Part shown: piece by piece, positions 22,573-36,177 of the stretch
How the letters are laid out: each line of letters begins with the position of its first letter
Position numbering within the stretch: position 1 is the stretch's first letter
From: Alphaproteobacteria bacterium
GTDB taxonomy: Bacteria; Pseudomonadota; Alphaproteobacteria; UBA8366; GCA-2717185
Assembly: GCA_040905865.1 (NCBI GenBank)
Contig: JBBDQU010000048.1
Span: 70,615-107,188, forward strand
Reading direction: 5' to 3'
DNA length: 36,574 nucleotides
Notes under the pieces: generated by a model
What the model was told of the DNA's origin: nothing
The model's database searches: none
Seen by the model: the letters and a program-made list of their open reading frames with translations, nothing else
Program-made: the position numbers and the translations under genes

Positions 22573-23002
22573 GTGACTTCCTCTGCTGGGGAAACGGCGG
22601 GTCCGCCGCGTTTTCAGGGTTCACCGCACGCTAATCCGGGCGGGCGAAAGATCAAACCATTTAATGCGCGGCGGCGGCCCGGGCAGCCCGGTGGCTGGCG
22701 GCGATATTAAAGACGCCGACCAGCGACAGTTCGAACACGCTACAGGCTCAGAGATAACGGGTTTTTGACTTTATTGAGAAAAATGGATCACCGGAGAATT
22801 GGATGGCGTGTGTCGAAAAATCTTACACTTTCCAAAACTTTGCTAATGATCCACTAGGTATTTGTTTTTATTTAATAATTTTCCATTTACCGCTAAAACC
22901 GCACCGGCGTTCACGAAATGTACCGTCGATATTCTTTACATTTTGCGCATGAGTTCTCGAGTGCAAATTGCCAACCTGTTGTTTTTGCGGAATTAACTTT
23001 TA
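22573..23002. other. AT-rich intergenic region upstream of the PEP-CTERM gene
   Basis: No gene seen. From about 22740 the DNA is strongly AT-rich. It contains the inverted repeat AAATGTA (22916-22922) with TACATTT (22937-22943), 14 bases apart and about 60 bases before the sigma-54 promoter, a suitable place for an enhancer-binding protein. A second weak dyad, TTGCGC with GTGCAA, lies at 22943-22974. Confidence 0.5.
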
Positions 23003-23017
23003 TGGCACGCTAATTGC
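23003..23017 (+). promoter_or_regulatory. sigma-54 promoter
   Basis: TGGCACGCTAATTGC matches the RpoN consensus TGGCAC-N5-TTGC exactly, with GG at 23004-23005, GC at 23016-23017 and the required spacing, followed by TT. Transcription would begin near 23028, leaving a leader of about 70 bases before the PEP-CTERM start at 23099. Sigma-54 promoters need an activator; PEP-CTERM genes in other bacteria are known to depend on RpoN with the PrsK/PrsR two-component system. Confidence 0.85.
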
Positions 23018-23098
23018 TTATATATTTAGCCAATAATGGCCTCATCGAAGCATCCCCGTTGGATACTTGGAAGGGCAAGTTAATCGGAGCAGTATATT

Positions 23099-23950
23099 AT
23101 GATTTCCAGCGTGTCATCATTAAAACGGGCGGTGCTTGCTGTTGCGCCCGTGAACAAACGGTTATTTGCCGGAATTGCGACCGCTGTTTTCGTGTTCGCC
23201 GGCGCACCGGATTCACATGCTGTTCCGATCAGTTTAGAGAAGAACGTCACGGGCGCCGTTTCATTCAACGACCAGACCTCGTTAGCCGACCAGACATCGT
23301 TTGCCGGGGCTGACCTGTCGGCGCTGTTCAAATTCGAGGCCGAGAGTACCGACACAACCGGCGTATTTTCCGCCGCAGTAACAAACACCAGCGATGCCGC
23401 GACGACGGCGATCATGACGGCGCTCGGCATCAAGATCAACAGCATGTTCACTCTGGAAAGTTTTAACTATACGAATACAGGCACGGGCAGTTCTGCCTTC
23501 AGCGACACGAATAGCGCTAACGCGGTATCGGGGTTTCTGACGATGGACCTGAATGACCTGACGGCAGCCAGAAACGGCCCAGGTGGCGTGAATAACGGGC
23601 TGAACATCGGCGAATCCGGGCTTTTCGAGTGGAACGTCTCCTTTGCCGCCGGCGCGCTGGATTTGGTGACCGACTTTTTCGACGTTTTCGACACGGAACT
23701 GGTTGACAACACCTTGTTGCACACGGGGGATGACGGCACGGATGTTACTGCGTTCTGGGTCGCGCATATGCAGTCTATCGATAATTTCGATTCGGATAAT
23801 CCGAACTGTACCTCGAATTGCGACGGATCGGTGAAGATTGGCGGTTCCGTGAATCAAAACACAGTACCGGAACCCGCCACCCTTGCCCTTCTCGGTGCCG
23901 GGCTGATCGGCCTGGGCGCGCTGGCGCGGCGGCGGCGCAAGACGGCGTAG
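23099..23950 (+). CDS. PEP-CTERM sorted surface/exopolymer protein
   Basis: 283 residues. An N-terminal signal peptide (hydrophobic core LFAGIATAVFVFAG, cleavage after SHA near residue 41). The body is low in cysteine, rich in Thr, Ser, Asn and Ala and beta-strand forming. It ends with the sorting signal VPEPATLALLGAGLIGLGAL followed by ARRRRK: the PEP motif, a hydrophobic helix and a basic tail. Exosortase (EpsH) and its partner enzymes recognise this tail and are linked to exopolysaccharide and biofilm or floc formation; no exosortase gene is in the window. GGAG lies 10 bases before the ATG. A sigma-54 promoter precedes and a strong terminator follows it. Confidence 0.94.
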   Translation: MISSVSSLKRAVLAVAPVNKRLFAGIATAVFVFAGAPDSHAVPISLEKNVTGAVSFNDQTSLADQTSFAGADLSALFKFEAESTDTTGVFSAAVTNTSDAATTAIMTALGIKINSMFTLESFNYTNTGTGSSAFSDTNSANAVSGFLTMDLNDLTAARNGPGGVNNGLNIGESGLFEWNVSFAAGALDLVTDFFDVFDTELVDNTLLHTGDDGTDVTAFWVAHMQSIDNFDSDNPNCTSNCDGSVKIGGSVNQNTVPEPATLALLGAGLIGLGALARRRRKTA

Positions 23951-23977
23951 TATTCACCGCATTAACCGACCGGATCG

Positions 23978-24010
23978 GGGCTGGCGCTTTTGTGCCGGCC
24001 CTTTTCTTTT
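23978..24010 (+). terminator. intrinsic terminator of the PEP-CTERM gene
   Basis: GGGCTGGCGC (23978-23987), loop TTTT, GTGCCGGCCC (23992-24001) and tail TTTTCTTTT. The stem is 10 pairs long with two G-U pairs. It lies 28 bases after the stop codon, making the PEP-CTERM gene a single-gene unit. Confidence 0.92.
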
Positions 24011-24121
24011 GTGTCCGGCCGGCCTGGCCCGTTCCAGACACGCTGACGCCGCCGGGCAAAGAATTCGGTGCCCCGGATCGGGCCGATAGGCTATATCTCC
24101 GCGCATCATGGAAAACGGGCA

Positions 24122-25339
24122 ATGAGCGGGCGGGCGGCGGTTGTCGGCGGCGGGCCGGCGGGGCTGATGGCGGCCGAGGCGCTGCTGGCGCGCGGCTGCG
24201 CCGTGGATATCTACGACGCCATGCCCTCGCCCGGCCGGAAATTCCTGATGGCGGGCAAGAGCGGACTCAACCTCACCCATACCGAAGCGGCCGAACCCTT
24301 CATGGCGCGTTACGGCGCGGCGCGGGACCGGCTGGCGCCGGCGCTGCGCGAGTTCGACGCCGCCGCGATCCGCGCCTGGGCGGAAGGGCTGGGGATCGCC
24401 ACCTTCACCGGCAGTTCCGGGCGGCTGTTCCCGGTGGATTTCAAGGCCGCGCCCCTGCTGCGGCGCTGGCTGCACCGGCTGCGCGGCGCCGGGGCCCGCA
24501 TCCATGTGCGCCATAAATGGCGGGGCTGGGCGGCGGATGGCGCGCTGGCCTTCGACACGCCGGACGGCGCGGCGACGCGGACGGCGGATGCGACCGTGCT
24601 GGCGCTGGGCGGCGGCAGCTGGCCGCGGCTGGGTTCGGACGCCGCCTGGATTCCCGTCCTGGCCGAAGCCGGGGTATCGGTCGCGCCGCTGCAACCCGCC
24701 AATTGCGGCTTCGACATCGCCTGGACCCCGGTCTTCCGGGAGCGTTTTGCCGGCGAACCGGTCAAATCCGTGCGCCTGTCCCATGGCGGGCGCGGCGTCA
24801 TGGGCGAATGCGTCGTCACCGGAAACGGGATCGAGGGCGGCGCGGTCTACGCCCTGTCGGCGGCGCTGCGCGACTGTATCGCGGCGGAAGGCGGCGCGAT
24901 CCTGACCATCGACCTCAGCCCCGACCGCAGCAGGGCGCGGCTGGCCGCCGACCTCGCCGCGCCGCGCGGGTCGCGCACCGTCGCCACGCATCTGAAACGC
25001 AGGGCCGGGCTGGCGGGGGTCAAGGCCGGGCTGCTGCGCGAGGGGCTGGCCGCCAGCGCCTTCGCCGACCCGGCGCGGCTGGCCGCCGGGATCAAGGCGC
25101 TGCCGCTGCGCCTCCTCGCCGCGCGGCCGCTGGAGGAAGCGATCAGCAGCGCCGGCGGCATCCCCTTCGCCGCGCTGGACGCGAAGTTCATGCTGCGGGC
25201 GCGGCCCGGGCTGTTCTGCGCCGGCGAGATGCTCGACTGGGAAGCGCCGACCGGCGGCTACCTGTTCAGCGCCTGTTTCGCCACCGGCCGGGCCGCCGGC
25301 GCGGGCGCGGCGGACTGGCTGGCGGCGCAGGCACGCTAA
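24122..25339 (+). CDS. TIGR03862-type flavoprotein (BaiN/HI0933-like)
   Basis: 405 residues. The start holds the FAD dinucleotide-binding fold AAVVGGGPAGLMAAEALLA; PSPGRKFLMAGKSGLNLT follows, the signature of the HI0933/BaiN family. Near the C-terminus are ISSAGGIPFAALDAKFML and LFCAGEMLDWEAPTGGYLF, the second FAD-contact region. Members are reductases of unknown or varied substrates (BaiN acts on bile acids). The start at 24122 is set by the fold and by GGAAAACGGG upstream. It ends one base before the convergent CMD gene. Confidence 0.9.
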   Translation: MSGRAAVVGGGPAGLMAAEALLARGCAVDIYDAMPSPGRKFLMAGKSGLNLTHTEAAEPFMARYGAARDRLAPALREFDAAAIRAWAEGLGIATFTGSSGRLFPVDFKAAPLLRRWLHRLRGAGARIHVRHKWRGWAADGALAFDTPDGAATRTADATVLALGGGSWPRLGSDAAWIPVLAEAGVSVAPLQPANCGFDIAWTPVFRERFAGEPVKSVRLSHGGRGVMGECVVTGNGIEGGAVYALSAALRDCIAAEGGAILTIDLSPDRSRARLAADLAAPRGSRTVATHLKRRAGLAGVKAGLLREGLAASAFADPARLAAGIKALPLRLLAARPLEEAISSAGGIPFAALDAKFMLRARPGLFCAGEMLDWEAPTGGYLFSACFATGRAAGAGAADWLAAQAR

Positions 25340-35610: not shown

Positions 35611-36177
35611 TTATCCCAAAGCCCGCTTCAGCCAAGTCGGCGGTTCATCCGCCATATAGACAACCGTACCGTCTTGCGCCTCAAGAACGCGTAAAAATCC
35701 GTTTGCGGTGCTGTTATCGTAAAGAATGGCGACATTGGCGAGCCGGAGGGCAACAGGCAAGTTTCGCAAGCTCCGGTCGTACCGCCGACGCACATCCTCG
35801 GGCTGGACGTTGTGACCGCCACGCCGGTAGCGCTCCTGAACGCGCATTATCGCGTCGTTTGCATTTTCCACACAGATATAGGCGAGGCCGACGGACCACC
35901 CGGCATGCCGCGCTCTACGCATCAGGTTAACATGCAGTTTCCCGGAGAGGGTCGTTTCGACCGAGAAGTTGCCGTTCCGGGCAAACGCCGCATCGATGGC
36001 TTCAAGCGCTCTTTTCCCTGCCTGAACTGTTACGAGGCCCGGTTGGGCGGGTTGCAACTCCCGGGCAATTATATCGGGATTTATGTTCAGCAGATTTCCG
36101 TATTGATCCGATGCGAGCGTCGATTTCCCGGTACCGTTCGGCCCGGCGATCAACCAAAACCACGGCGGCGCATTCAT
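35611..36177 (-). CDS. zeta-toxin-like P-loop kinase
   Basis: 188 residues. Walker A GPNGTGKST (residues 12-20), followed by NINPDIIAREL and NFSVETTLSG, the pattern of zeta/PezT-type toxins and related small kinases, with RVQERYRRGGHNVQPEDVRRRYDRS holding the Arg-rich substrate region. Zeta toxins phosphorylate UDP-N-acetylglucosamine. This short chromosomal subgroup is often listed as an AAA or zeta-toxin family protein; the target has not been fixed by sequence. It overlaps the upstream small gene by four bases. Confidence 0.87.
   Translation of the reverse strand: MNAPPWFWLIAGPNGTGKSTLASDQYGNLLNINPDIIARELQPAQPGLVTVQAGKRALEAIDAAFARNGNFSVETTLSGKLHVNLMRRARHAGWSVGLAYICVENANDAIMRVQERYRRGGHNVQPEDVRRRYDRSLRNLPVALRLANVAILYDNSTANGFLRVLEAQDGTVVYMADEPPTWLKRALG

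Follow-up and report, generated by a model that had tools for sequence, protein, structure and literature searches.

A putative PrsR-controlled sigma-54 promoter of a PEP-CTERM protein gene in an alphaproteobacterium, with banded spacing and a candidate IHF-like element in comparable promoters

Within the window, i.e., the whole 36,574-nucleotide stretch of DNA analyzed here, we identified a region from which a single PEP-CTERM gene is very likely expressed through a sigma-54 promoter under PrsK/PrsR control, as part of the XrtA/PEP-CTERM system (Table 1). This reading is supported, among other things, by the recurrence of the same arrangement, an upstream motif (motif 1) and a -24/-12 element, before PEP-CTERM genes and by the way in which the composite tracks PrsR across genomes. 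PrsR/sigma-54 control of PEP-CTERM genes has been known as a regulon since 2006. The window represents one more case of this published regulon, with a corrected candidate activator site for its gene, and the comparison with other genomes yields a spacing rule and IHF as a candidate third factor.

Table 1. Features of the promoter region and the adjacent PEP-CTERM gene (positions in the window)
Feature	Sequence	Position	Strand	Remarks
Motif 1, distal copy, candidate PrsR site	TGTCGAAAAATCTTACA	22811-22827	+	exact match to TGTCG-N7-TTACA
Dyad of the sequence-only reading	AAATGTA-N14-TACATTT	22916-22943		overlap with motif 1 probably coincidental
Motif 1, proximal copy, candidate PrsR site	CGTCGATATTCTTTACA	22924-22940	+	one mismatch to TGTCG-N7-TTACA
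IHF-like element	CAACCTGTTGTTT	22972-22984	+	YAA-N4-TTG; begins 31 nt ahead of the T in TGGCAC
Sigma-54 -24/-12 element	TGGCACGCTAATTGC	23003-23017	+	exact match to TGGCAC-N5-TTGC
PEP-CTERM protein gene		23099-23950	+	283 aa; tail VPEPATLALLGAGLIGLGALARRRRK; TIGR02595 33 bits, PF07589 31.2 bits
Terminator-like hairpin with T-rich tail		23977-24002	+	pattern match just past the stop codon

The exact -24/-12 element that an earlier, sequence-only reading had placed before the gene is present and has no second exact copy in the window; when up to one mismatch was tolerated, two matches were obtained, vs 2.57 in shuffled sequences. Judging from the position of its -12 part, transcription is predicted to start near 23028-23029. 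Throughout the 4.37-Mb genome, the exact pattern occurred 15 times, vs three times for a reversed control. Four of these 15 elements fall within 3 kb (C74:81685-84569, in L097) in a flagellar cluster encoding two flagellins, FlbT, FlaG and a hook-length-control protein, and therefore the pattern does find plausible sigma-54 promoters in this genome. FlbT, along with the overall gene content, suggests an alphaproteobacterium. The numbers of exact matches in the genome and in its reversed control leave some room for the match before the PEP-CTERM gene being due to chance and for the gene being read from another promoter. However, the placement of the element relative to motif 1 and to the gene, the same arrangement at other PEP-CTERM genes, and a pattern scan of 22700-24150 that returned no sigma-70-like promoter (0.9 in shuffles) make this the least probable of the alternatives considered here, and one that is hardly credible.

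Comparing the upstream regions of the PEP-CTERM loci in the genome, we found the motif TGTCG-N7-TTACA, of which the window contains two copies 113 nt apart, similar to the other tandem pairs of the genome (101-121 nt). The distal copy ends in CTTACA and the proximal one in TTTACA, and 62 nt lie between the latter and the -24 element. The sequence-only reading had instead proposed the dyad AAATGTA-N14-TACATTT, inside which the proximal copy sits, as a candidate activator site and as a handle on the binding site of PrsR. This perfect 7-base dyad is located at a usual enhancer distance and has a single exact copy in the genome, but it was not enriched, as up to three mismatches gave 29 places in the genome vs 36 for the reversed control, and none of the 29 was in the promoter region of another PEP-CTERM gene. 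With up to four mismatches, the loci with PEP-CTERM hits contained one further match, located within a coding region (L006). Moreover, the TTTACA with which motif 1 ends accounts for the right arm of the dyad. We therefore rejected the dyad, which is very unlikely to be the activator site. The handle on the candidate PrsR site is instead TGTCG-N7-TTACA, a motif published in 2006. Elsewhere in the window, a sequence on the minus strand (35718-35734) resembles motif 1 with one mismatch, but it was followed by a poor -24/-12-like stretch without TTGC, lay within a reading frame and was dismissed as a chance match.

The arrangement in the window corresponds to the one reported by Haft et al. in 2006 (PMC1569441). 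The sections of that article considered here describe a 17-nt motif 1 ending in TTTACA, which is sometimes repeated, and a motif 2 containing the -24/-12 element, separated by a spacer with a mean of 62.8 nt (SD 10.6, range 32-92), with the start codon about 71 nt past motif 2. They also name PrsK, PrsR and PrsT and mention a few sites before other genes. With regard to these sections, the window matches in its 17-nt motif 1 copies, its 62-nt spacer and its exact -24/-12 element, and the source genome in having PrsK, PrsR and PrsT; the likeness of motif 1 was judged on the 17-nt length and the TTTACA end.

The genome encodes the expected machinery. The sequence-only reading had named prsK, prsR, an exosortase and rpoN as the genes to look for, and all of them were found above their cut-offs. 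The exosortase (C23:23078) scored 170 bits to TIGR02602 and 241 bits to the XrtA model TIGR03109, and the same contig, C23, encodes PrsK (673 bits) and PrsR (671 bits), each above the curated cut-off. PrsT is encoded twice, on C23 (737 bits) and on C22 (425 bits), both above the cut-off, and the second copy directly precedes a PEP-CTERM gene. Contig C23 also carries the PEP-CTERM-linked transferase EpsB_2, an XrtA-type amidotransferase and a nearby PEP-CTERM gene. RpoN (433 bits, above its cut-off) and IHF-alpha (132 bits, cut-off 120) are present as well. PrsR consists of a receiver domain, a sigma-54 activation domain and a Fis-type helix-turn-helix; its sigma-54 contact loop reads GSFTGA, not GAFTGA, and its 12 remote named relatives share 39-47% identity with it. 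Together with the published two-motif arrangement and spacing at the promoter, the presence of XrtA, PrsK, PrsR, PrsT and RpoN supports the earlier suggestion of a conserved control circuit.

The predicted gene itself is genuine, with scores for both TIGR02595 and PF07589 above the cut-off. Its product shows the hallmarks of an XrtA/PEP-CTERM substrate, i.e., the PEP motif, a transmembrane stretch and a basic tail at the C terminus, and an N terminus that appeared signal-like when the translation was judged by eye. It matched the cistern-family model NF033947 over most of the protein (50.6 bits, below the cut-off of 60) and the PepA flocculation model NF033554 over nearly its whole length (38.9 bits, below the cut-off of 80). 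These matches, both under their cut-offs, suggest a distant relative of the cistern-family and PepA proteins; because of the NF033554 score, we did not file it as PepA. The alignment with its paralogue on C56 was confined to 51 residues of the tail, and a search of the genome contigs collection returned no named relatives. The terminator that the sequence-only reading had seen after the gene is present as a hairpin, but such patterns were no commoner in 22700-24150 (two sites) than in shuffles (2.1), and it is thus by its position that the hairpin is supported.

For the genome as a whole, eight places scored over the PEP-CTERM cut-off, seven of which were kept; the eighth (L008, 16 bits, exactly at the cut-off) was rejected because by eye it reads as a transporter. 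L009-L011 scored under the cut-off. TGTCG-N7-TTACA occurred in 15 exact copies, three of which (C36, C45, C78) were attributed to chance in view of their GC-rich middles, and in 195 matches with up to one mismatch vs 107 for the control. Motif 1 was found upstream of six of the seven PEP-CTERM genes, namely the window gene, those on C56, C22, C23 and C51, and the second gene on C48. In five of these six it is in direct orientation, and the proximal copy ends 62-64 nt before the -24 element. Two of the five proximal copies carry one mismatch (window, C56), and in two the -24 element departs from TGGC-N7-TTGC (ATGC on C23, GGGC on C48). The sixth (C51, L006) has its motif 1 in inverted orientation at a distance of 81 nt, and a second inverted copy follows the promoter. 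Upstream of the remaining gene (C44, L003), allowing one mismatch revealed no motif 1, and the -24/-12-like stretch found there is weak. In this genome, motif 1 mostly occurs in pairs, at 101-121 nt (C10, C22, C23, C48 twice, C56 and C85). Across genomes, six of 50 promoters compared, one of them from this genome, had a second upstream copy within 200 nt at up to one mismatch.

To assess the distribution of this promoter type, we searched for a composite of TGTCG-N7-TTACA, 36 to 96 bases, and TGGC-N7-TTGC. Among 385 genomes of the class, the composite was detected in 23 genomes at 66 places (reversed control: 2). A search of 398 genomes of the phylum again found it in 23 genomes (reversed control: 3) and contributed another 33 places, some of them in further genomes of the same class. 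After removal of one of two copies of one site (L179/L180), 99 composite sites were kept. More than half of them (52/99), from 24 genomes and 19 families, precede PEP-CTERM-like proteins; 44 of these promoters belong to the class of the window and eight to other classes, and 18 were new from the phylum search, including ten of the window's class. The window's own promoter, with a mismatch in the proximal motif 1, does not fit the pattern and is therefore outside this set. PEP-CTERM-like status was assigned by a pattern on the protein tail, except that L177, L181, L188, L189, L190 and L243 were set by hand, L159 was excluded by hand and L252 was removed as a false tail match.

PrsR was found above the cut-off (E ≤ 1e-130) in 32 of the 385 class genomes, the set in which it was scored. 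It was present in 18 of the 23 class genomes with the composite but in only 14 of the 362 without it (Fisher p = 4e-18, table counted by hand). The five composite-bearing genomes with no PrsR hit at this threshold are heterogeneous: G033 and G260 share one site with a 67-nt spacer that is outside the bands described below, G163 and G210 have their sites before PEP-CTERM-like genes, and the site of G224 has an in-band spacer. These five genomes would be compatible with another enhancer-binding protein, e.g., a different regulator of the NtrC family, driving the promoter, in which case motif 1 would not be the PrsR site. Three further regulators of the source genome resemble the PrsR model (325-345 bits, under its cut-off), and the flagellar cluster with its four exact elements shows that other sigma-54 regulons exist. 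We nevertheless consider such a regulator unlikely, given the association of motif 1 and -24/-12 with PrsR over the 385 genomes, the location of PrsR on the same contig as exosortase A, PrsT and other genes of the PEP-CTERM system, and the fact that the flagellar elements lack the IHF-like element (see below) in place.

The spacers between motif 1 and the -24 element fell into bands. For the 52 PEP-CTERM promoters, these were 50-53 nt (8 promoters), 61-66 nt (33), 73-75 nt (5) and 83-87 nt (6), with means of 51.5, 62.9, 73.8 and 84.8 and hence a step of about 11. None of the 52 had a spacer of 54-60, 67-72 or 76-82 nt, vs seven of the 47 other sites. Of the latter, 30 were within the bands, eight had 43-44 nt and nine were outside; seven of these nine came from genomes with a single match, as expected of chance matches. 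The 19 spacers outside the main band keep its phase at 10.5 bp (p = 3e-6 vs a uniform choice of other lengths), and so do 12 spacers when one per family is taken (p = 2e-5). The same test gave p = 0.005 for the class search (nine spacers), p = 0.006 for the new same-class sites (six) and p = 0.001 for the other classes (four). The periodogram of the spacing was broad, with 0.76 at 10.5 and 0.80 at 11.0-11.5, and the 43-44 nt group lies about 8 below the lowest band, short of a full step. Since the spacer sequences are mutually unlike (median identity 0.29, maximum 0.56), the bands are not explained by recent duplication. These data suggest that the distance of motif 1 from the promoter changes in increments of roughly one helical turn, as would be expected if PrsR had to approach the promoter from one particular face of the helix. 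Such a rule helps to separate real from chance sites in new genomes, including those of regulon members that are not PEP-CTERM genes. In the sections of Haft et al. considered here (PMC1569441), spacer bands about one helical turn apart are not mentioned.

When the promoters were aligned on the -24 element, the columns about 32 to 19 nt upstream tended to TAA-N4-TT-N-AAA (best single-promoter form TAACCCATTGAAA), which we take to fit the reverse of the IHF consensus. AA-N4-TTG beginning 29-33 nt upstream of the -24 element was present in 25 of the 52 PEP-CTERM promoters, vs 0.5 expected from shuffles of 51 promoters. By set, these were 21 of 34 promoters from the class search (0.26 expected), two of ten further same-class promoters (0.1) and two of eight from other classes (0.1). 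Because the element was first noticed by eye in the class-search listing, the phylum-search sites provide the fair test, and here it was above chance but in a minority (4/18). Promoters with unusual spacers indicate what the element is placed against: with 73-75 nt spacers, it was in place relative to the promoter in three of five cases and relative to motif 1 in none of five; with spacers under 58 nt, in three of eight vs one of eight; and with spacers over 80 nt, in one of six either way. Twelve of the 47 non-PEP sites likewise had it in place. A matrix trained on class-search promoters with 61-66 nt spacers located the element in six of the nine class-search sites whose spacers had other lengths (0.9 expected, shuffle maximum 5) but in only five of the 18 new phylum-search sites, a weak result (1.6 expected, shuffle maximum 6). 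In the source genome, the element is in place at four of the eight direct motif-1 promoters, including that of the window, which is the only one of the 15 exact sigma-54 elements to have it.

An activator site, a bend site and a -24/-12 element with dependence on the helical face are the parts of IHF-assisted sigma-54 enhancers, such as the NifA and NtrC promoters. Candidates for these parts emerge here from a pattern that recurs in genomes sharing the regulon. Following this scheme, PrsK would phosphorylate PrsR, which would bind motif 1 at the proximal copy, perhaps aided by the distal one. IHF, if the IHF-like element is its site, would bend the 62-nt spacer, and PrsR on the helix side facing the polymerase could then contact RNA polymerase-sigma-54 at the -24/-12 element and open the promoter. 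The product would be exported, sorted by exosortase A and join the cell surface or the exopolysaccharide matrix. Binding by PrsR and IHF, transcription of the gene and the function of its product are inferences from sequence. The more general proposition is evenly balanced in our view: PrsR promoters may be three-part switches with motif 1 at steps of about one turn (about 52, 63, 74 and 85 nt, and about 43 nt in one family), an IHF site at a constant distance of about 30 nt upstream of -24, and the -24/-12 element itself. The regulon may also extend beyond the PEP-CTERM genes, for example to a conserved small membrane protein of one family, to a PAS-domain protein and, possibly, to a short RNA.

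A precedent is provided by pepA of Aquincola tertiaricarbonis RN12 (PMC9850573), the one gene with measured RpoN dependence in the literature considered here. According to the parts of that study considered here, it depends on RpoN1 and its transcription start was mapped at a -24/-12 element; an enhancer was predicted upstream, control of pepA by PrsR is a prediction, with the role of PrsR left open, and the prsK mutant could not be complemented by its authors. As far as these parts go, both cases share a PEP-CTERM gene, a TGGCAC -24 element, a predicted upstream enhancer and a terminator, in the window a terminator-like hairpin, past the gene; they differ in that no prsT was found among the tested neighboring frames of the window and in that the window protein is under the PepA cut-off. 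The main text of PMC1569441 contains neither "IHF" nor "integration host". A literature search of titles and abstract openings, with most subscription journals uncovered, returned no report of PrsR binding or of an IHF site at PEP-CTERM promoters. The sequence-only reading had pointed to control by PrsK, PrsR and RpoN in Zoogloea, and no paper demonstrating it was found among titles and abstract openings. The considered parts of PMC1569441 and PMC9850573 contain neither the banded spacing nor the IHF-like element nor these particular targets outside PEP-CTERM.

Three additional promoters of the source genome, on C10, C66 and C85, have a 63-nt spacer and are located at non-PEP places. On C66 (C66:59660-60620; L090:2161-3121), motif 1 and a sigma-54 element lie 272 nt before a gene for a PAS_5-domain protein (PF07310), which matched the MopJ model weakly (44.5 bits, cut-off 200). 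On C85 (C85:45802-46313; L091:2303-2814), a 51-residue membrane-like protein follows a sigma-54 element and motif 1 in two copies. The promoter on C10 (C10:27455-27663; L089:1956-2164) has a tandem motif 1, with one copy mismatched, and a sigma-54 element without a clear gene. Visual inspection showed an inverted repeat about 90 nt on, GC-rich and with TTTT behind it, which could possibly end a short PrsR-controlled RNA.

The composite with the 43-44 nt spacer was found in eight genomes of one family, f14 (L206, L207, L208, L227, L228, L233, L235, L236). In seven of these genomes, the gene behind it encodes a conserved small membrane-like protein (71-85 residues) without a PEP-CTERM tail, and in the eighth (L233) a later-starting frame reads as a relative. 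PrsR was present in all three f14 genomes that were scored for it (G145, G244, G325).
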